Shown here: piece by piece, positions 11,126 through 22,812 of the stretch
How the letters are laid out: each line of letters begins with the position of its first letter
How positions within the stretch are numbered: position 1 is the stretch's first letter
Source: Wenzhouxiangella sp. XN24
Lineage (GTDB): Bacteria > Pseudomonadota > Gammaproteobacteria > Steroidobacterales > XN24
Length of the DNA: 64,000 nucleotides
Direction of reading: 5' to 3'
Assembly: GCF_011064545.1 (NCBI RefSeq)
Contig: NZ_JAAMFG010000036.1
Coordinates: 248,001-312,000 of the forward strand
Translations under genes and position numbers: made by a program
The notes under the pieces: generated by a model
What the model saw: only the letters and a program-made list of their open reading frames with translations
Databases searched by the model: none
Told to the model about the DNA's origin: nothing

Positions 11126-14100
11126 TCACCGCTCGGCAACGCGCTCGTGCATTCTTGTGTGCGTGCCGCGGGCATCATCTTGGGAGGGATAAATGACTGG
11201 CGCATCAGGGTTTTCAACCTGGGATGCGTTCGAGACGTCGTTTCCACAGGCTTTTTCGCGCAGTGCCGCGATGCCTGCAAGGAGCCGCGCGCGTGCTCCG
11301 TGGAATTCGCCGAGGCGAGCCTGGGCGACTTCCGCCTGGCCGGCGTCGCACAGCGCCAGCAGTTGGTCCGCCATGGCGTGGACCTGCGTGTGCAAGGCCC
11401 CCAGCGCCTGGAATTCGGCGGTCAAACCGAAATCGGCCGTGCCGATGCCGTGGTACCACTGGCCGAACTGACAGGCGCCGTCGCCCGGCACCGAGGCGGT
11501 GACACCGCTTTCGATGCAGCGGATGACGTCGGCGGCCCACGTCGTGTGGCTGCGCGTCACTACCTCGAGGAACAGCGCCTCGCGCCCTGGCGCCAGGCCG
11601 TCGGACAACGAGCGCCAGGCACCGCGCTCGCGCCAATCCTCCAGCCACTGCGGCAGCTCCTCCGCCGGCATGGGCATGCCGATGCCGTAGCCTTGCGCCA
11701 GCGGACAGCCCAGGCGCAACAGCATGGCGCCGTGCTCCATGGTCTCGACGCCCTCCGCGATCACCGGCCGGTTGAACGCCCGGGCCAGCCGCACCACGCT
11801 CTCGACGATGCCGAGGTCGTTCGGGTCGTGCAGCATGTCGCGCACGAAGCTCTGGTCGATCTTGAGCAGGTCGACGGGGAGGCGACGCAGATAGGCGAGC
11901 GAGCTGTATCCCGTGCCGAAGTCATCGAGCGACACCCTGACGCCGAGGTTGCGGCAGCTGGCGAGCAGGAGGGAGGCCTCCTCCAGGTTGCTCAGCGTCG
12001 CGTTTTCGACGATCTCGAGTTCGAGCTGCTCCGGTGCGACCTGGGGATGGCGTGACAGCGCCTGTTCGATGCGCTCTGCGAAATCCGGCACGAGGAGGTG
12101 CGTCGGGCTGATATTCACGCTGACCACCTGCGCCATCCCGGCTTCGTTCCAGCGACCGATCTGTTCCAGTGCGCGTTCGACGACCCAGTCGCCCAGGCGG
12201 ATTTCCAGCTCGGTACCGTCCAGCTGACCGAGGAACGTGCCGGGCGAGAGCACACCGCGCGACGGGTGACGCCAGCGCAACAGGGCTTCCATGCCGACCA
12301 CGGCGCCGTCTTCCAGGTTCACCTTGGGCTGGTAGTACAACGCGAATTCGCCCTCCTCGAGCGCGCGTTCCAGCCGGTCCAGGCTCTTGCGCCGCGCCAT
12401 GCTGAGGCGATCCTGGTCGGGGTCGAACACGTGGCACCGGTTCCTGCCGAGGCTCTTCGCCCGGTACATCGCCTGGTCCGCATGACGCAACAGCGTATCG
12501 GGCTCCGGGTCGTCGGGCGGGAACATCGTGAGGCCGATGCTGCTCGTCACCGCGAGCTTGCGCCCGGCGATCACGATGGGTTCACCGGCCTTCGCCAACA
12601 CGCGCTGCAGCACCGCCTCGGCTTCGCGCACGCCCTCGAGATCATTCAGCAACAGCACGAACTCGTCGCCGCCGAGCCGCGCCAGCGTGTCCTCGCCGCG
12701 CAATACCGTCTTCAGTCGGGCGGTCAATTCGACCAGCAGCCTGTCGCCGCTGGCATGGCCGAGGCGATCGTTGACCGCCTTGAAGCCGTCCACGTCCAGG
12801 TAGCACACCGCCAGGTGCCGCCCGGCGCGGCGGGCATGCGCCACGGCTTTCTGCAACAGTTCCATCAGCAGGCGGCGGTTCGGAGTGCCTGTCAGCGTGT
12901 CGTAGTGCGCGATCTGGCGGAGCTCCTGCTCGTGCGCCTTGAGTCGCGTGATGTCGCGGATATGTCCGTGCCAGATGATGCTCTGGTCTTCCTGGGGCAC
13001 GGGCGCGGCGCTGCCTTCCAGCCAGATCGTGCGCCCGTCGGGCAGGCAGACCCGGTACTGGTCGAACCAGGGCGCCAGCCGGCGCGCGGATTCCAGGATG
13101 CGCTCGGCGACGCGGGCCCTGTCCTCCGGGTGCAGCACCTCGAATACGGGTGTCGCGTCTTCCGCCACGGCCTCGGGCGTGAGACCGTAAATCGCGCTCA
13201 TGCCGGCGCTGGCGTAGGGGAAATGACTGCTGCCATCGGGTCGCAGGCGATACTGGTAGATCACGCCGGGCACATGGGCGGCGATGTTCTGCAAGCGATC
13301 GAGAACCTCGAGGCGCTGCTCATCGGCGCGTTTCCGCGCGCTGATGTCCTGGTGGGTGCCCGCGACGAGCAAGGGCTTGCCGTCTTCCGAACGGCTGGCG
13401 ATGGCGCCACGATCGAGCACCCAGACCCAGTGGCCGGCCTTGTGGCGCATGCGCAGTTCGCACTCGTAGTGGTCCACCTCGCCGCAGAAATGGCGTCCCA
13501 GCACGCGGCTCGATCGGGCGAAGTCGTCCGGATGTACGAAACGATTCCAGGTCGTGATCGTGATCGGCTGCAGCTCGGCAAGCGTATAGCCGATCATCTC
13601 GGCCCAGCGCTCGTTGATGACCAGCTCGCCTGTCTGGACGTTCCATTCCCACGTACCGACGCGCGTGCCCTTGATGATCGTGTCGAGGCGGCGACGCTGG
13701 GACACCAGCTCGTTGCGTTGCCGGGTGCGCTCGGTGATGTCCTGGCCGACGCCGAGCACGCCGATGACACGCCCCGTGGTGTCAAGCACCGGCGTCTGGG
13801 TGATCTCCAGGAGTTCCTCGTGACCGTCGTCGGCGAATCGCACCACGGCTTCCATGACCGTCCGGCCCGCGGGCACATCGCGGTCCAGGGTTGCGAGATG
13901 CGAGGCGCCGAGCTCGCCCGTGGTTCGGCCGATCACCGCGTGCTCCGGCCAGCCGATCAATTGCTCGAAACGCCGATTGCATCCCAGGTGCACGCCATCG
14001 ACATCCCGCAGCCAGACCACTTGCGGCAAGGAATTCAGCAGCGTCTGTAACTGCGAGTGCTCCCGCTCCAGCAACCGTGCCGAATGCTCCGTCTCCCGGC

Positions 14101-15118
14101 GCGCGCTCGCGATCCGCCGATTGGCGACGGCGAGCGCACCCGAGAGCACCAGCACCAGGACGATCGCAACCGCCAGCACGGTGATCTGCAGCCGGAAGGT
14201 CGACCAGACATCGCCCAGGCGGATGGATGGTGCCATGTCGAAAGGTGGCAGACCGAGGGCCCGCATGGCACGTTCCACGGGCGCGTAATCCGCCGGCACG
14301 GCGAAGCCGTGAATACCCGCCGCCACCGCCGCCGGATCCCCCGGCTCAAGGGCCAGGAGGGCCGCCGTCAGGCGACGCGCCGTCTGCGGGTCCACGTGCG
14401 GCAAAGCCACGAAGGGCCACTCGGGATACAGACGCGTAGACACCGCGAAGGGGAATCCCGGGAGGTCCTGGCGAGCAACCACCTGCAAGGCATCGGCCTC
14501 CAGTCGCCCCTCGGAGATCATGTGCTCGATGATCCCGGTGCGAATGAAGCCCGCATCCACCTCGCCCTCGAGCACGGCGCGCACGACGTTGTCATGCGGC
14601 TGGCCCAGTTCGACGAAATCCAGGCGGCGCGGATCGATTCCCGCTTCCCGCAGCGCCTCCATGGGTGCTGCGTAGCCGCCGAGATAGCGACGCCCGGTGA
14701 TGGCGACCGTCTTCCCCTGGAGGCTGGCGAGGTCGACGACATCGCTGCGGCCGGCCCGTGCCACGACGACGCCTCCGAGAGCGGCCACCGGAACACCGCT
14801 TTCAAGGTTCACGAGCGTCGCGACCGCGCCCGACAGGGCGTTGTGTTCCCGCAAGGTGATGTAGTGGGTCGGATTGGTGAAGAGAAAATCGAGTTCATGG
14901 CGCAGCAGCGCAGCCTCGATCTCTCGCTGGTCGAGGACCAGCAGGCGGATGTCGTAACGGGGCAGCGCTTCGCCCAGGTAACGGGCGACCGGCGTCAGGC
15001 GTGTCTCGAGCATCGCCTTGTCACGATAGGCGAACACGCCGATGTTGAGCGTCTGGTCCGCGTACGACGTGAACGGGGCAGCCAGGAACCCGATAATCAG
15101 CCACGGCAGTATTCTCAT
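11126..15118 (-). CDS. Hybrid c-di-GMP sensor: PhnD-like binding domain, TM, three PAS, GGDEF, EAL, CZB
   Basis: The 1330-residue protein starts with a signal/anchor (MRILPWLIIGFLAAP). Residues 22-290 are a periplasmic PhnD-type phosphate/phosphonate-binding fold. A transmembrane helix spans about 311-333, and three PAS/PAC modules follow (about 357-468, 478-600, 605-730). The GGDEF domain has intact GGDEF at 816-820 with an upstream RxxD (807-810). The EAL domain (about 915-1160) retains EALLRW, NISPTHL and DDFGTGYSS. The last 140 residues look like a chemoreceptor zinc-binding (CZB) domain: HTTW at 1191, CQFGQWYHG at 1216, then HTQVH at 1243. The start is set by the signal sequence and by a 4-bp overlap with the upstream binding-protein gene. 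Both enzymatic halves look competent, so net activity cannot be predicted. Confidence 0.9.
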   Translation of the reverse strand: MRILPWLIIGFLAAPFTSYADQTLNIGVFAYRDKAMLETRLTPVARYLGEALPRYDIRLLVLDQREIEAALLRHELDFLFTNPTHYITLREHNALSGAVATLVNLESGVPVAALGGVVVARAGRSDVVDLASLQGKTVAITGRRYLGGYAAPMEALREAGIDPRRLDFVELGQPHDNVVRAVLEGEVDAGFIRTGIIEHMISEGRLEADALQVVARQDLPGFPFAVSTRLYPEWPFVALPHVDPQTARRLTAALLALEPGDPAAVAAGIHGFAVPADYAPVERAMRALGLPPFDMAPSIRLGDVWSTFRLQITVLAVAIVLVLVLSGALAVANRRIASARRETEHSARLLEREHSQLQTLLNSLPQVVWLRDVDGVHLGCNRRFEQLIGWPEHAVIGRTTGELGASHLATLDRDVPAGRTVMEAVVRFADDGHEELLEITQTPVLDTTGRVIGVLGVGQDITERTRQRNELVSQRRRLDTIIKGTRVGTWEWNVQTGELVINERWAEMIGYTLAELQPITITTWNRFVHPDDFARSSRVLGRHFCGEVDHYECELRMRHKAGHWVWVLDRGAIASRSEDGKPLLVAGTHQDISARKRADEQRLEVLDRLQNIAAHVPGVIYQYRLRPDGSSHFPYASAGMSAIYGLTPEAVAEDATPVFEVLHPEDRARVAERILESARRLAPWFDQYRVCLPDGRTIWLEGSAAPVPQEDQSIIWHGHIRDITRLKAHEQELRQIAHYDTLTGTPNRRLLMELLQKAVAHARRAGRHLAVCYLDVDGFKAVNDRLGHASGDRLLVELTARLKTVLRGEDTLARLGGDEFVLLLNDLEGVREAEAVLQRVLAKAGEPIVIAGRKLAVTSSIGLTMFPPDDPEPDTLLRHADQAMYRAKSLGRNRCHVFDPDQDRLSMARRKSLDRLERALEEGEFALYYQPKVNLEDGAVVGMEALLRWRHPSRGVLSPGTFLGQLDGTELEIRLGDWVVERALEQIGRWNEAGMAQVVSVNISPTHLLVPDFAERIEQALSRHPQVAPEQLELEIVENATLSNLEEASLLLASCRNLGVRVSLDDFGTGYSSLAYLRRLPVDLLKIDQSFVRDMLHDPNDLGIVESVVRLARAFNRPVIAEGVETMEHGAMLLRLGCPLAQGYGIGMPMPAEELPQWLEDWRERGAWRSLSDGLAPGREALFLEVVTRSHTTWAADVIRCIESGVTASVPGDGACQFGQWYHGIGTADFGLTAEFQALGALHTQVHAMADQLLALCDAGQAEVAQARLGEFHGARARLLAGIAALREKACGNDVSNASQVENPDAPVIYPSQDDARGTHTRMHERVAER

Positions 15119-16089
15119 GGTTCGAAGCCGGACCGCAGGTACTCGGCGGTAGCCAGTCCATCGAGAGTCTTGGATGCCGGCAGACGTCCGTTGGCAGCCA
15201 TCCATGCGACGAGCTTTGCAGCGGCCGCCTCCAGGCGCCCCTCGTCCGTATCCAGCAAGGCCTGGTTCCCCGCGAGATCCGGGAGGACGAGGCCGCGGTA
15301 GGCGGCGAGCACCCTGTCGCCGGGAAGTTGCAGGCGGGACGCCAGCCGATAGGCCGTATCCTGCGGGCTATGGCGCAAGGCGTACAGGCCGCGGAAATGC
15401 GCCTGGATCAAGGCTTCGACCTGCTCCCCTTTTTGTTCCAGCACATCCCGCCGGACCGCCAGCACGTCGAATATCCATTCGGGCATGGCCGTGCTGTCGA
15501 ACACTTTCTCCGCACCTTCGAGCATGAGCTGGCTGGCGGTCGGCTCGTAGGTCACCAGGCCATCGAGTTCATAGGTATCCCAGGCCGCCCGGTGAGAGCC
15601 CTCGATGGGCACCGAGATGATATCGGCCATCGTCAATCCGGCCGCAGCAAGCGCCTGCGAGAGGACGAGCGCCCCCACCGCAGTGGTCTCGACGCCGATC
15701 CGCCGACCCCGCAGTTCATCGAGTGTCCGGATGCCGGGCCGCACAAGCACCTTGTCCGCGCCAACCGAAACGTTGAACACGAGGACCACGCTGAGAGGCA
15801 CGCCCGAGGCGCGCGCCAGGAGCACTTCGTCGAGCGTCAGTGCGGCCGCCTCGATGCGCCCCTCCTGCAATGCCTGGAGGCTTTCGCTCGCGGTACGCGT
15901 CTCGACCAGCTCGACCTGGCCGGGAGACAGCCAGCCCTCGTCGCGGGCCAGGAACATGAACTCGTAGCCGGGCCAGACATGACTGCCGACTTTAAGCGGG
16001 GGGGCAGGCGTGCATGCGGACAGGGCGGCCAGCATGAATCCGACCACCGTGACGAGATGCAGGTACAAGGGGCGCTTCATCTCCGGCAT
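15115..16089 (-). CDS. Solute-binding lipoprotein, NMT1/SsuA-like
   Basis: The 324-residue protein has a lipoprotein signal ending LSAC. A type 2 periplasmic binding fold of the nitrate/sulfonate/taurine/thiamine-precursor class follows (VGSHVWPGYEFMFLARDEGW, then LKDLRGR-like TLDELRGRRIGVETT). Normally such proteins feed an ABC permease. Here no permease or ATPase is adjacent; the next gene, overlapping by 4 bp, is a c-di-GMP enzyme with its own periplasmic binding domain. The binding protein may therefore act as an environmental sensor partner. Start at 16089, or 16080 (MKRPLY), which fits the signal peptide equally well. The ligand is unknown. Confidence 0.8.
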   Translation of the reverse strand: MPEMKRPLYLHLVTVVGFMLAALSACTPAPPLKVGSHVWPGYEFMFLARDEGWLSPGQVELVETRTASESLQALQEGRIEAAALTLDEVLLARASGVPLSVVLVFNVSVGADKVLVRPGIRTLDELRGRRIGVETTAVGALVLSQALAAAGLTMADIISVPIEGSHRAAWDTYELDGLVTYEPTASQLMLEGAEKVFDSTAMPEWIFDVLAVRRDVLEQKGEQVEALIQAHFRGLYALRHSPQDTAYRLASRLQLPGDRVLAAYRGLVLPDLAGNQALLDTDEGRLEAAAAKLVAWMAANGRLPASKTLDGLATAEYLRSGFEP

Positions 16090-17703: not shown

Positions 17704-18018
17704 ATGAGTATTCCTAATACAGGCGGGATGAAGCGCCGGCCGACCCACCCGGGCGAGATGCTCCGCGAAGACTTTCTCGTGGACTATGACCTGACAGTCA
17801 CTGGATTGGCGGAGGCTATTGGCGTTTCTCGCCAGTCCGTCAACGAACTGCTTCGAGAGCGACGCGCGATCAGCCCGGAGATGGCTCTGCGGCTCGCCAG
17901 ACTATTCGGTAACTCTCCAGAGTTCTGGCTGAACTCTCAGCGGGCCGTGGACCTTTGGGATGCGGCCCGGGAAATCAAGAAGGACGTCGCGCGAATTCGG
18001 CCGCTAAATGCCGCATAA
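17704..18018 (+). CDS. higA: HigA-type antitoxin, XRE-family regulator
   Basis: The 104-residue protein contains a helix-turn-helix (LTVTGLAEAIGVSRQSVNEL) in the HigA arrangement, with PTHPGEMLREDFL upstream and MALRLARLFGNSPEFWLNSQ downstream. It would neutralise HigB and repress the operon, probably at the palindrome at 17379-17392. The start may be 17704 or the internal ATG at 17728 (MKRRPTHPGE). The stop codon TAA is embedded in GCATAACAAG, which resembles the outer core of an integron attC site. Confidence 0.9.
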   Translation: MSIPNTGGMKRRPTHPGEMLREDFLVDYDLTVTGLAEAIGVSRQSVNELLRERRAISPEMALRLARLFGNSPEFWLNSQRAVDLWDAAREIKKDVARIRPLNAA

Positions 18019-18157: not shown

Positions 18158-18420
18158 GGGTACGATTCCTTACTCCCGCTCGGCGGGAGTTAATGGATGC
18201 GGTTCGCTACTACAATGCCCAGCGACCTCAACTCGGCGACGAATTTCGAGATGAGGCGAGAGAAACCATCAAGCGCATCACCCGATTCCCTGGCGCGTGG
18301 CACGCTTTGTCAACCAAGATCCGACGGTGTCATATGGCACGCTTCCCGTATGGCCTCATCTACACGGCCACTGAGGCCGAGGTACTCATCGTCGCGGTCT
18401 CGCACCTTCATAGAGCGCCC
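18154..18420 (+). pseudogene. ParE/RelE-type toxin, 3' end replaced by RHS DNA
   Basis: From a TTG overlapping the antitoxin stop (TTGA), the frame encodes FLTPARRELMDAVRYYNAQR, then RFPGAWHALSTKIRRCHMAR and IYTATEAEVLIVAVSHLHR, a nearly complete ParE-family toxin. Homology stops at about 18420, where the family normally ends in a short RRPGYW-like tail. Beyond that the frame stays open to 19095 only because it reads antisense through an RHS segment. The gene may make an abnormal fusion or be inactive. Confidence 0.65.
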
Positions 18421-19035
18421 GTGCACCAGGCCGACCTGGTCGAGATGCTCGTGGCCGGTGAAGCCGCGGGTCACGCTGAGCGCGACGATAAACACAACCG
18501 GGGTGGGCGTCTGCTTCTTGAGAAAATACCCGCTCGGGTCGGTATAGAAAAGCGGGTTGTTGCCCACATAGGCGTAGCGGTTGAAACCCTGCGTCGAGAT
18601 GGGAAACTGCACGAACGGGTCCGGCGACAAAAACCGCCCGATCTCCGGGTCGTACACCCGCCCGCCCATGTGGATCAGTCCCACCTGGTCCAGATGCTCG
18701 TGCATCGTGAACCCGCGCGTCAGCGTGATCGCGGCGATGAACACCCCCGGCGCGGGCGTCTGCCAGGTGCTCGCGGGCCGGCGCTTGCCCCAGGCATCGT
18801 ACGCCAGCGACTCGACGATCGTGCCCGTCTCGCCGGTGATCACCACCACCGAGCCCAGGTGATCCTTGTGCAGGTAGCGGGTGGTGTTGGTGGTGCTCGC
18901 ACCGCTGCGCTTGACCGTCGCCACGGTGCGACCGTTGGCCTGGACGTGGTGGGTGTGCTCGACCGTCAGCCCCGCCTCGCGGCGCTCGTAAAGCGCAGAG
19001 CCATACAGCGTCAGCACCGTCTGGCCGTCGATGCG
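18420..19035 (-). pseudogene. Orphan RHS core fragment
   Basis: The minus-strand frame encodes LTLYGSALYERREAGLTVEH, HLGSVVVITGETGTIVESLAYDAWGK (broken here for length) and HEHLDQVGLIHMGGRVYDPE, then the RHS end motif YVGNNPLFYTDPSGYFLKK. This is the conserved terminal core of RHS/YD-repeat proteins. It has no start of its own and is joined at 19035 to a 105-residue gene. After PSGYFLKK it continues with a divergent second copy of the same unit (VFIVALSVTRGFTGHEHLDQ, then VGLVHG), which ends at the ParE junction. It looks like a recombination product rather than an expressed gene. Confidence 0.75.
18513..19035 (-). repeat. 523-bp direct repeat of RHS core, copy A
   Basis: This segment aligns without gaps to 21096-21618 (constant offset 2583 bp), with only a handful of mismatches seen by eye. 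Both copies encode the last part of the RHS core up to PSGYF. Confidence 0.9.
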
Positions 19036-19621: not shown

Positions 19622-20206
19622 CTATTCGCCCTCTCGCTTCTCCACATGGGATGTCACGATCTCTCGAATCGTCTCCAGCTCTGGGCTTGGGCCACGACCA
19701 ATCACGTCACCCACAAAAGCCTTCGCACAGTCCCGTTCAGCGCCAGGCCTCGACACGGAAACTGAGTACCCACATGCATGCGCTCCTTTGGTCAGCAAGT
19801 ATCGAACCACTTCCTGGTCCTCGATCAGGATGGCTTGTTGGAGCGGCGTATAACCAATTCTGTCGGGTGAGTTGACGTCCGCGCCTCGCAATATCAGTTC
19901 ATCCGCCAACTCAGTGATTCGTTCAAATTTTCGGCGCTCGGCACGATTCGATCCCTTCGCGTCGATGGAGTTAACTGAAAGAATGAATCCCAAGCCGTCA
20001 TTCTCGATCAACTCTGCCATTCGGGCGTCGGACCGCATTAGGTAGCCCTTTGCAACTTCGGCTGGCACAAACTCACCGCCGACAATTGCACGCAGAGCGA
20101 CCCACTTCACAGGACTGGATGAAAGATTCCACGCCACGTAGATACAATAAAGTATCAGTGGCGCGACCGCGGCCACTACGATCAATGGCGTTTTTTTGGA
20201 GCTCAC
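19622..20206 (-). CDS. Membrane-anchored ankyrin-repeat protein, probable RHS immunity protein
   Basis: The 194-residue protein begins with one hydrophobic helix (PLIVVAAVAPLILYCIYVAW), then a soluble region with at least one clear ankyrin unit (ELILRGADVNSPDRIGYTPL, then QQAILIEDQEVVRYLLTKGA). It overlaps the end of the RHS gene by 4 bp, the typical coupling of toxin and immunity genes. Ankyrin-repeat proteins are known immunity proteins in polymorphic toxin systems. The N-terminal anchor suggests it protects at the inner membrane, or from toxin entering the periplasm. The immunity role is inferred from position and fold. Confidence 0.65.
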   Translation of the reverse strand: MSSKKTPLIVVAAVAPLILYCIYVAWNLSSSPVKWVALRAIVGGEFVPAEVAKGYLMRSDARMAELIENDGLGFILSVNSIDAKGSNRAERRKFERITELADELILRGADVNSPDRIGYTPLQQAILIEDQEVVRYLLTKGAHACGYSVSVSRPGAERDCAKAFVGDVIGRGPSPELETIREIVTSHVEKREGE

Positions 20207-22812
20207 CGGCCTGTCCGCAGCGAATACGCAGGGTATACGCCGTCGTGTCGCCGAGTCAGAAATTCAGAGCGAAAGTTCTGGATTATTTTGACCCGAACAG
20301 GTTCCGCAATGTAGGGGGAGTCGAGGTCGGCCCGCCGTAGCGTTGCCTCTAGCAATTTTGCTCCGCGCGCGGTTCTGCCGATCGTTTTCGCCGCTAGGCG
20401 TAGTCTCTGTGGCAGGAGCCGCGTTGCCCCAACCCCTCTCATTACGGTGAACTTAATCAAGGATATTTGATATGTCGCCTCAAGCCCTTCAACGAGCAAT
20501 CCTTGGGCGAAGGCCAAATCGGTTGAGTTGATCTCTGATGGGTCAAGTCCGCGCAACTCGTAGAAATCGAATGTAGCGCTCGCCATCTCGGCATCAATTA
20601 CGATCTCATCCAAGGTAAACGTCGGAAGATCATTTCCTGCGTGATCATGATTAAACCGGCTCACGAACGCCGCGGACCACGCCCCGTTGGCAAACTTGCC
20701 GCCGCCGATGCGGCTTACCGTGCCACCGACTGCGGCCGCGGCCACCATGCGTCCGATCTGGCCCTCCTGGCTTCCGTATGGCCCGGCGACCGCTTCCGGA
20801 ATGAACGACAGCAAGCTGCCCGAGAACGCCCCCAGCGCCCCGTCCCCGAAGCGCCCGCCCCCGGCGGCTGAGACCGCCCCCTGCGTGATGCCGTGCAGCG
20901 CCGAGCGGCGAACGTTGTCGAGATTCTCGATGCCGCCGATCTTTCCCGCAATGCCCGCACTCATCATCCCCATCATCCCTGCCTGCGCATTGCCACCACT
21001 GGCCAGAAAGCCACTGACAAAGCCGTGTATGAAGGCATTACCCGCCAGCGTCCAGCCGGGGATGAAGTTCATCCCGATCCCGGCCACCTTCATCAGCTTC
21101 TTGAGAAAATACCCGCTCGGGTCGGTATAGGAAAGCGGGTTGTTGCCCACATAGGCGTAGCGGTTGAATCCCTGCGTCGAGATGGGAAACTGCACGAACG
21201 GGTCCGGCGACAAAAACCGCCCGATCTCGGGGTCATACACCCGCCCGCCCATGTGGATCAGGCCCACCTGGTCCAGATGCTCGTGCATCGTGAACCCGCG
21301 CGTCAGCGTGATCGCGGCAATGAACACCCCCGGCGCGGGCGTCTGCCAGGTGCTCGCGGGCCGGCGCTTGCCCCAGGCATCGTACGCCAGCGACTCGACG
21401 ATCGTGCCCGTCTCGCCGGTGATCACCACCACCGAGCCCAGGTGATCCTTGTGCAGGTAGCGGGTGGTGTTGGTGGTGCTCGCACCGCTGCGCTTGACCG
21501 TCGCCACGGTGCGACCGTTGGCCTGGACGTGGTGGGTGTGCTCGACCGTCAGCCCCGCCTCGCGGCGCTCGTAAAGCGCAGAGCCATACAGCGTCAGCAC
21601 CGTCTGGCCGTCGATGCGCGCCGACTGACGGAACATCGCCCGGTCCCCACCGGGGCCGTACCAGTACTCGGCGTGGTTGTTGCCGTCGCGCTCCATCCGC
21701 CGCGGCTTGTTGAAGCTCCACCAGCTCACCGTGCGCGCCCCGGGACCCGTCACCTGGGTCAGGTTGCCGTTGGCGTCGTAGCTGTAGCTGCGCGTCCCCG
21801 CGGGCGTGGTGACCGCCGAGACCTGGTGCGGACGGTTGGCGTGCGTGTACTGGTAGTTCGTGAAGCTGCCCTTCGACAGCATGTTGCCCACCGCGCTGTA
21901 CTGCACCGTCTCGCTGCCCAGCACGCTGCCGGCCGCCGTCTTCAGCGTCACCGTCTGCAGGCGCCCCAGATCGTCGTACAGCAGATCCTCCCGCCGGTTC
22001 ACCCTGTAATCGGCGCGCTGCTCCAGGTTGCCCACCCGGTCCCAGGCCATGCCCAGATCCTGCACCGAGACGGGGTTGCCCGCGCTGCCCGTGGCAATCG
22101 TCTCCACCAGCCCCGTCGCCGGGTTCACGTAACGCTGCGTGTACAGGGCGTTGCCCAGCTTCTCGCGCGTCACCGAGCCCAGCGCGTCCACTTCCAGGGC
22201 TTCCCAGTAGCGCGTGCCCGTACTGCCGTCGGGCTGACGCTCCCGCACCAGATACAAATGTCCATAGCGGTAATAGTGATCTACCCGCAGCCGACCGGCA
22301 TCGGGCGGGCTGGCGCTGCAGGGCGCGGCGCAGTCCACCGACGGATAGCGGATCTGGGAGACCTGCCCGAGCGCATTGTAATCGTAGCGGGTCCAGAACC
22401 AGATGCCGTTGACGTACCGCGCACTGTGGCGCAGTTCTCCGCCCTCGGCGGTGTACCAGAACGATTCACGGTAGCCATGCAGACCGGTGATATCCGTGAC
22501 CCTGCCGCGCGCCGGTCCGTGCGCAGTGTTGTCGTAAGTCCAGGTCGTGCTCCCTTCCGGCTCGCTGCGCGTCTTGATCCGGCCCAGCACGTCATACGTC
22601 ATACTGACCGTTACGCTGTTGGCGTCCGTCTGGGACGTCAGCTCGCTCGGCGCCGCGCCCAGCGGCGGCGCCGCCAGGCTGTCGCAATGCGCCGGCTCCG
22701 CCCCCGCATACTCGTGCCGGACACGGCCGAGCTGGTCGTAATGGCGCACCGTCCAGCAGGCGCCTGCGTCGATACCGGGGCGTCCATTGCTCGGTGACAG
22801 CATCCCAGGCAA
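20203..22812 (-). CDS. RHS/YD-repeat protein, 5'-truncated, with unrecognised C-terminal tip
   Basis: The 869-residue frame shows YD repeats (for example YDVLGRIKTRSEPEGSTTWTYD, broken for length; LLYDDLGRLQTVTLK; YSYDANGNLTQVTGPG) and the terminal RHS core ending YVGNNPLSYTDPSGYF at about residue 570. The last 300 residues are a variable tip. A Gly/Ala-rich hydrophobic stretch is followed by DLPTFTLDEIVIDAEMASAT and a basic end (RRHDGVYPAYSLRTGR); I recognise no toxin family. Full RHS proteins are usually over 1300 residues. Here the frame begins directly after a TAA with only TTG (22812) or an unsupported ATG (22803) to start, so the secretion-related N-terminus is missing. Confidence 0.75.
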   Translation of the reverse strand: MPGMLSPSNGRPGIDAGACWTVRHYDQLGRVRHEYAGAEPAHCDSLAAPPLGAAPSELTSQTDANSVTVSMTYDVLGRIKTRSEPEGSTTWTYDNTAHGPARGRVTDITGLHGYRESFWYTAEGGELRHSARYVNGIWFWTRYDYNALGQVSQIRYPSVDCAAPCSASPPDAGRLRVDHYYRYGHLYLVRERQPDGSTGTRYWEALEVDALGSVTREKLGNALYTQRYVNPATGLVETIATGSAGNPVSVQDLGMAWDRVGNLEQRADYRVNRREDLLYDDLGRLQTVTLKTAAGSVLGSETVQYSAVGNMLSKGSFTNYQYTHANRPHQVSAVTTPAGTRSYSYDANGNLTQVTGPGARTVSWWSFNKPRRMERDGNNHAEYWYGPGGDRAMFRQSARIDGQTVLTLYGSALYERREAGLTVEHTHHVQANGRTVATVKRSGASTTNTTRYLHKDHLGSVVVITGETGTIVESLAYDAWGKRRPASTWQTPAPGVFIAAITLTRGFTMHEHLDQVGLIHMGGRVYDPEIGRFLSPDPFVQFPISTQGFNRYAYVGNNPLSYTDPSGYFLKKLMKVAGIGMNFIPGWTLAGNAFIHGFVSGFLASGGNAQAGMMGMMSAGIAGKIGGIENLDNVRRSALHGITQGAVSAAGGGRFGDGALGAFSGSLLSFIPEAVAGPYGSQEGQIGRMVAAAAVGGTVSRIGGGKFANGAWSAAFVSRFNHDHAGNDLPTFTLDEIVIDAEMASATFDFYELRGLDPSEINSTDLAFAQGLLVEGLEATYQISLIKFTVMRGVGATRLLPQRLRLAAKTIGRTARGAKLLEATLRRADLDSPYIAEPVRVKIIQNFRSEFLTRRHDGVYPAYSLRTGR
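21096..21618 (-). repeat. 523-bp direct repeat of RHS core, copy B (inside the RHS gene)
   Basis: Partner of 18513-19035. It ends just at the start of the variable tip, so the repeat spans the end of the conserved core. Recombination between the copies would swap the tip and immunity genes. Confidence 0.9.

Follow-up and report, generated by a model that had tools for sequence, protein, structure and literature searches.

The solute-binding protein (SBP) NspS belongs to the polyamine type. In Vibrio cholerae and Sinorhizobium meliloti, according to the portions of published work consulted, the NspS-MbaA system consists of a free binding protein of a transporter family and a GGDEF-EAL membrane protein, which together control the turnover of cyclic di-GMP (c-di-GMP). 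Titles of reports on XAC2383-XAC2382 describe a PhnD-family periplasmic protein that is paired with a c-di-GMP enzyme, and passages concerning AioX (PMC5908839) describe a PhnD-like signaling protein, with both AioX and ArrX serving to signal rather than to transport. The TtrS and ThsS sensor kinases, as portrayed in passages of another report (PMC5408782), have a PhnD-like domain fused to the sensor. Here we examine a gene pair in a window of 64,000 nucleotides (the whole stretch of DNA that was analyzed), which spans positions 248001 to 312000 of contig C36 in the 3.29-Mb, 37-contig genome of Wenzhouxiangella sp. XN24. The pair encodes a free SBP of the SsuA/NMT1 type together with a membrane sensor whose own periplasmic domain is of the PhnD type. 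An earlier note on this DNA had proposed that two binding proteins of different families control c-di-GMP turnover at this locus. We find that the SBP and the PhnD domain form an input cassette that is attached to histidine kinase, GGDEF, or GGDEF-EAL outputs. We consider it probable that the SBP docks on the PhnD domain to create a two-module receptor with exchangeable outputs, which in this host is c-di-GMP turnover.

Recurrence of the two binding modules

Two peptide patterns, run against 84,980 species genomes, picked out 42 loci with identities of 42-59%, a set that retains the near-identical pairs L080/L081 and L084/L088. A PhnD-fused sensor is encoded by the next gene in 34 of these loci (including L107, which has fragmentary SBP and PhnD matches only) and by the second gene in two more (L092 and L102), where it sits behind a GGDEF-EAL gene (HAMP-PAS-GGDEF-EAL in L092). 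Two loci were not judged, one because of a contig end (L095) and the other because its SBP is a fragment (L109). The linkage extends over Gamma- and Betaproteobacteria, Magnetococcales, and Geobacteraceae. Among the 34 loci, the output is a histidine kinase in 15, GGDEF-EAL in nine, and GGDEF in seven (counting L087, which reaches a contig edge), and is cut off by a contig end in three. Within the same genus, L045 has the order hemerythrin-GGDEF gene, SBP gene (50% identical product), and gene for a PhnD-transmembrane (TM)-PAS-histidine kinase protein, also with a 4-bp overlap, and the other genome of the genus that was searched gave no SBP match. Tight spacing is a further feature of the pair: the sensor could start no more than 30 nucleotides (nt) from the SBP stop in 36/36 PhnD-class rows versus 9/20 rows of a transporter-class control, and the sequence allows an overlap of exactly 4 bp in 13/36 versus 2/20.

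The conserved adjacency that the earlier note had suggested seeking in relatives therefore does recur across several classes, albeit patchily. Its proposal of c-di-GMP control by two binding proteins stands in part: the transporter-free unit is a recurring one, but it is not specific to c-di-GMP, because 15 of the 34 loci and L045 end in a histidine kinase. The conserved element is the two binding modules and not the c-di-GMP output. Because the pair travels together while the output module is swapped, it is probably one receptor rather than part of a transporter.

Matches to the SBP also reach into transporter-linked members of its family. Of 398 phylum genomes searched with a profile (A2), 137 gave matches at E<=1e-20, transporter-linked members included, and 80 neighborhoods were fetched, best first with some skipped. 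In 47 of the 49 best-scoring neighborhoods, a kinase, GGDEF, EAL, or PhnD gene lies within 900 nt downstream (PhnD is present in seven of the 49 partners). Of the other two, L177 has a GGDEF-EAL gene directly upstream and a kinase gene 2.1 kb downstream, and L185 has 1.2 kb to the contig end. The next 31 neighborhoods comprise 17 with a permease and/or ATPase gene within 900 nt, four with a permease gene farther away, six with a sensor gene, and four with none of these genes downstream (one of which, L205, has GGDEF upstream).

A tree of 116 SBPs, from which four short sequences (L101, L107, L109, and L216) and five near-identical ones had been dropped, separates these groups. One clade of 82 rows includes 37 PhnD-linked SBPs, 44 linked to other sensors, one unjudged, and no transporter-linked member, with a support of 83 in the Shimodaira-Hasegawa-like approximate likelihood ratio test (SH-aLRT). 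All 37 PhnD-linked SBPs fall within a single clade of 40 rows (SH-aLRT 99). Outside the 82-row clade are 20 transporter-linked, nine sensor-linked, four with neither, and one unjudged. When labels were shuffled, clustering as tight was seen in 0/200 draws. On this tree, partner class changes eight times and output 16 times. Sensors classed as PhnD-less are the partners of 53 of the 116 SBPs, although two of these have PhnD in the second gene. The N-termini of ten such sensors have a short periplasmic stretch, with no Pfam match for this part at E<=0.01; at the same threshold, HAMP was found in 8/10 and PAS in 10/10, some under the model cut-off.

The 42 loci were collected through the SBP, and thus the search made from the PhnD side alone is unbiased with respect to the PhnD domain. 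A PhnD profile matched 63 of 274 genomes of the class, and 40 loci were examined, best first, with one (G873) skipped. The SBP gene adjoins the PhnD gene in six of the 40, and all six are among the nine that fall within one clade of the PhnD tree, which has 49 rows and includes all SBP-partnered rows of the other searches. The sister clade has an SBP in 0/31 loci (one of these, L274, has only 0.1 kb upstream). For this tree, four near-identical rows, matches with E>1e-30 (1e-15 in the converse-search set), and those of fewer than 180 residues were dropped, and locus L140 is the contig of L082. PhnD residues such as F272, F191, and L219 hardly vary within the SBP-partnered clade but are missing from its sister. 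Clade-specific positions also include P240 in PhnD and W53, W170, H231, and R248 in the SBP. Over the PhnD tree, output changes number 18 (three states) versus four changes of SBP linkage (two states).

Divergence within the SBP and PhnD modules is also correlated (r=0.59 for 44 pairs, Mantel p 2e-4; 0.51 in 38 less redundant pairs). Shared ancestry feeds all such correlations, and the informative part is therefore the contrast with GGDEF. For the 21 pairs with a GGDEF domain, the correlation is 0.56 for SBP-PhnD, 0.49 for PhnD-GGDEF, which are on the same polypeptide, and 0.15 for SBP-GGDEF (p=0.13). The bootstrap difference between SBP-PhnD and SBP-GGDEF is 0.41 (interval 0.19 to 0.66). For 20 pairs with a kinase, the values are 0.68 for SBP-PhnD, 0.50 for PhnD-kinase, and 0.50 for SBP-kinase.

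Organization of the gene pair and its protein products

Both open reading frames (ORFs) lie where the earlier note had put them, and the stop codon of the SBP gene overlaps the ATG of the sensor gene by 4 bp (ATGA). In the ORF list, the sensor is 1359 residues long from an upstream ATG, whereas a start at 15118 gives the length listed in Table 1.

Table 1. Positions in the window of the gene pair, the sensor domains, and the downstream gene
Feature	Position	Strand	Basis
SBP: SsuA/NMT1-type periplasmic lipoprotein, 324 aa, of sensor-linked clade	15115..16089	(-)	Pfam, NCBIfam, AlphaFold2, Foldseek, tree
Membrane sensor, 1330 aa: signal, PhnD domain, TM, 3 PAS, GGDEF, EAL, CZB	11126..15118	(-)	Domain scans, motifs
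PhnD-type periplasmic binding domain, residues 26-274	14297..15043	(-)	Pfam Phosphonate-bd 4e-42
GGDEF domain, residues 737-894	12437..12910	(-)	Pfam; GGDEF motif and RxxD I-site present
EAL domain, residues 915-1149	11672..12376	(-)	Pfam; motif residues present
C-terminal CZB domain, residues 1191-1253	11360..11548	(-)	40 bits, cut-off 29.4
PAS_4-GGDEF-hemerythrin diguanylate cyclase candidate, 472 aa	9503..10921	(-)	Domain scans

The SBP has a cysteine (Cys26) after a hydrophobic signal (LSAC) and matches the Pfam families NMT1 (2.6e-13) and NMT1_2 (9e-11), with a third match, to Phosphonate-bd, below its cut-off (21.4 versus 27 bits). By these three matches, it is not of the polyamine-binding family. 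It scores 93.4 bits with the NCBIfam model SsuA_fam, under the cut-off of 163.5, and 29-34 bits with TauA models, whose cut-offs of 304-490 it does not pass. The AlphaFold2 model (predicted local distance difference test, pLDDT, 93.7) resembles TauA and SsuA at about 20% identity, and its top Foldseek match is TauA 6ssy (TM-scores 0.77/0.83). Profile searches of solved structures returned no close relative for either the SBP or the fused PhnD domain.

Four acidic SBP residues (D87, E88, D112, and E134) are invariant across the 37 PhnD-linked rows, which makes it probable that the SBP still binds something. D112 is also invariant in the 20 transporter-linked rows, and E88 and E134 occur in 93% and 97% of sensor-linked rows versus 25% of transporter-linked ones. 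That these two positions separate the groups suggests a ligand class common to the sensor-linked SBPs. A separate feature of the family is an RRx-hydrophobic motif, resembling a twin-arginine translocation (Tat) signal, in the first 95 residues of 26 of the 34 SBPs in alignment A2; by eye, the SBP of the window has KR in place of the Tat-like RR.

The domain order that the earlier note had assigned to the sensor is borne out by Pfam and TIGR00229 matches. PAS domains are at residues 356-461 and 499-589 (Pfam), a third S-box stretch is recognized by TIGR00229, and the top-ranking TM-like stretch is at residues 314-332. The EAL domain retains the motifs EAL, DDFGTG, KID, EGVE, and QGY and aligns to solved EAL proteins such as MucR. 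Inspection by eye finds three histidines and one cysteine in the CZB stretch, which we take to be the residues required for a zinc site. No CZB domain was found in the five other PhnD-GGDEF-EAL relatives that were scanned.

The PhnD domain model (pLDDT 92.7) has Foldseek matches to PtxB, ArrX, AioX, and XAC2383, all at about 20% identity. The S-T-S stretch of PtxB is changed to S/Y-L-G both in the PhnD group of the sensor and in its SBP-free sister clade, and the His-Asp that follows it (H175 and D176 in the sensor) is mostly kept in PhnD rows. Given this change, binding of a phosphonate exactly as in PtxB is improbable, and the ligand of the sensor is probably not a phosphonate held in that manner. 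We rejected the idea that the PhnD domain is a pocketless docking platform, since the same change occurs in the sister clade and is thus no marker of the SBP-partnered clade.

The downstream gene for a candidate diguanylate cyclase, which the earlier note had not mentioned, is on the same strand and 204 nt beyond the sensor gene, and its membership in the operon is uncertain. A promoter and terminator scan of the locus gave uninformative output. The pair likewise has a hemerythrin-GGDEF gene on its upstream side in L045 and on its downstream side in L094, and L075 has a hemerythrin match about 4 kb upstream. As a fixed third member, however, this gene was discarded, because it accompanies the pair in the host, L045, and L094 and in none of the 80 phylum neighborhoods, as judged with a profile built from three sequences. 

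Only the pair itself is widely shared among loci, and neighboring genes consequently do not identify a ligand. Sulfate/thiosulfate transporter genes occur on the opposite strand near the pair in four of 46 loci (L069, L074, L084, and L104; the PhnD-type class of this count includes L094, which is PhnD-less). These loci belong to two Marinospirillum and two Thauera, with CysA and/or CysW identified and CysP in L074, and CysW also occurs in one locus with another sensor (L176). The Marinospirillum and Thauera neighbors hint weakly at sulfur compounds as ligand. Both Marinospirillum loci also have a gene for a PAS_4 sigma-54 activator directly upstream of the pair (L069:5504-6847 and L074:5505-6884).

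Elsewhere in the window, positions 18310-19017 and 20203-22812 appear by eye to hold a gene for an RHS-repeat-like protein along with a partial, displaced copy of the core of that protein. Beside them, short ORFs at 17704-18018 and 18154 resemble an antitoxin/toxin pair, also by eye.

A probable two-module receptor and its alternatives

In the mechanism that we favor, the lipoprotein would be the first stage of a receptor and not a transporter subunit. It would bind a small periplasmic ligand, as its fold suggests, and, in either its bound or its empty form, would dock on the PhnD domain of the co-translated sensor, an arrangement to which the linkage, the clade specificity, and the correlated divergence all point. 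The TM segment and PAS chain would then transmit the resulting change to GGDEF and EAL, whose motifs predict activity, and thereby shift net c-di-GMP synthesis or hydrolysis. AioX and ArrX, to which the PhnD domain bears a resemblance, serve in signaling and not in transport, and we count them as precedent for a receptor. A more elaborate form of this proposal is an undescribed receptor class in which binding modules of two families, a lipoprotein and a domain fused to the sensor, are in one complex that responds to two ligands, or to one ligand relative to how far the other module is occupied, and serves as a plug-in for kinase, cyclase, or phosphodiesterase outputs across several proteobacterial classes. 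We regard this form as possible but not likely.

Several observations weigh against docking. The close SBP family is rare near the host: 28 of 296 genomes of the order match the SBP at E<=1e-3, but matches better than 1e-80 are confined to the host and G002 (2/296 genomes of the order and 2/7 of the family). The 42 loci were gathered via the SBP with two peptide patterns, and four of these SBPs (L094, L097, L098, and L099) pair with a PhnD-less membrane sensor. Conversely, L250 and L252 fall in the partnered PhnD clade with no SBP nearby, and L255 has a weak partial match. Support for the 82-row SBP clade is moderate and comes from a quick tree, and nine sensor-linked rows are on the transporter side, which leaves room for more than one origin of sensor linkage. 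Among the divergence comparisons, the difference between SBP-PhnD and PhnD-GGDEF is indistinguishable from zero (-0.29 to 0.40), the SBP-kinase value reaches significance, and SBP-PhnD minus SBP-kinase has an interval that extends to -0.01. The EAL subset (n=12) gives 0.59 for SBP-PhnD, 0.22 for PhnD-EAL, and 0.06 for SBP-EAL, with wide intervals.

The SBP could instead be a solitary subunit of a distant ABC transporter that sits beside the sensor by chance. NMT1/SsuA relatives in the host order (22-34% identity) often adjoin a permease and/or ATPase gene, as do many of the distant relatives that make up the next matches in the order (1e-28 and lower) and the lower-scoring matches of the phylum profile. 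Two of three neighborhoods from a plasmid protein search (170 records) are beside permease and ATPase genes, and the third (L065) has the SBP beside an EAL protein; a plasmid DNA search gave 549 records, none with 80% query coverage, of which the ten listed are GGDEF/EAL-type or unannotated. The earlier note had stated that no permease or ATPase is adjacent, and this holds for the contig, which is without a permease match, and for ATPases as judged by ORF translations, no search for ATPases having been made. It had also raised the matter of a matching permease elsewhere in the genome. The host has nine BPD_transp_1 matches on eight proteins, seven of which were scanned; the eighth (L041, contig C34) lies between two phosphate (Pst)-like permeases. 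The top NCBIfam matches of the seven are oligopeptide (two), choline/betaine, phosphate (two), tungstate-type, and 2-aminoethylphosphonate/molybdate-like, several of them under model cut-offs. The sole TauC and nitrate-type matches are those of the choline/betaine permease (65 versus 342 bits and 44 versus 209 bits, respectively). No SsuC/TauC/NrtB-like permease was thus identified among the seven scanned proteins of this genome (completeness 98.7%), and its other NMT1 match is a TRAP-TAXI binding protein. Moreover, chance placement is contradicted by the recurring linkage and by the signaling genes downstream of nearly all of the best-scoring phylum SBPs. We therefore consider a distant transporter very improbable.

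Alternatively, the two proteins might be independent sensors or scavengers that are kept together, with the PhnD domain sensing its own ligand directly, as is thought for TtrS, and the SBP acting as a co-regulated binder that makes no contact. The 31-row sister clade that lacks an adjoining SBP, the SBP-free loci L250 and L252, and the PtxB-like His-Asp kept in most rows all accord with this possibility, as does the alignment of the NCBIfam TtrS model to sensor residues 22-353, even though its 109.6 bits fall far under the 750 cut-off. We nevertheless judge it rather unlikely. The SBP linkage persists through many changes of output, SBP divergence tracks PhnD more than GGDEF, transporter-linked members are lacking from the 82-row SBP clade, and the near-fixed PhnD residues are absent from the sister clade. 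A relay, in which the SBP passes its ligand to the PhnD domain so that sensing involves a single ligand and a transient docking, would fit the two-lobed binding-protein fold that the models and Foldseek indicate for both modules, as well as the acidic SBP residues kept in all PhnD-linked rows. However, the modules come from different families with different motifs, and the PtxB-like S-T-S is replaced in the PhnD group, and so we find a relay distinctly unlikely. Docking of the SBP on the PhnD domain remains the reading that we prefer.

Relation to described systems

Receptors activated by SBPs, such as NspS-MbaA, AioX-AioS, and XAC2383-XAC2382, are already known. In titles, abstract openings, and passages of the literature, mostly from non-subscription sources, the pairing of an NMT1-type SBP with a PhnD-fused sensor was not found, and on this basis the pairing looks like a new form of such receptors. 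If our proposal is correct, this branch of the SsuA/NMT1 family consists of signaling proteins, whereas plasmid records label its members ABC transporter substrate-binding proteins. Since the two-module input is conserved and its outputs are exchanged, input and output specificity are separable, and the pair would then be a natural experiment on these two kinds of specificity. It would also offer a route, via binding proteins, to ligands that control c-di-GMP.

The locus is reminiscent of NspS-MbaA in that the SBP gene adjoins a gene for a membrane receptor rather than genes for a permease and ATPase, and in that the receptor, here and in relatives, carries a GGDEF/EAL or kinase output. It differs in that the SBP is of the NMT1/SsuA type, the periplasmic domain of the receptor is itself PhnD-type, and outputs vary among relatives. 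In XAC2383-XAC2382, the PhnD protein is the free partner; in the pair described here, that place is taken by an NMT1-type protein, and the PhnD domain is part of the sensor. The host genome has a second couple that is like XAC2383-XAC2382 in having a free partner of the PhnD family. On contig C28 (L059:4310-9837), a gene for a free PhnD protein of 288 residues lies 2 nt upstream of one for a dCache_3-PAS-GGDEF-EAL protein of 1552 residues.

The AioX-AioS and ArrX systems likewise have a free PhnD-like protein, with a kinase output and arsenic oxyanions as ligands, and the passages at hand make no mention of an NMT1-type partner. The sensor shares a fused PhnD-like domain with TtrS and ThsS, from which it differs in having a GGDEF-EAL output rather than a histidine kinase. 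To our knowledge, TtrS has no free SBP partner. Perhaps the SBP-free sister clade of PhnD domains is of the TtrS/ThsS type.

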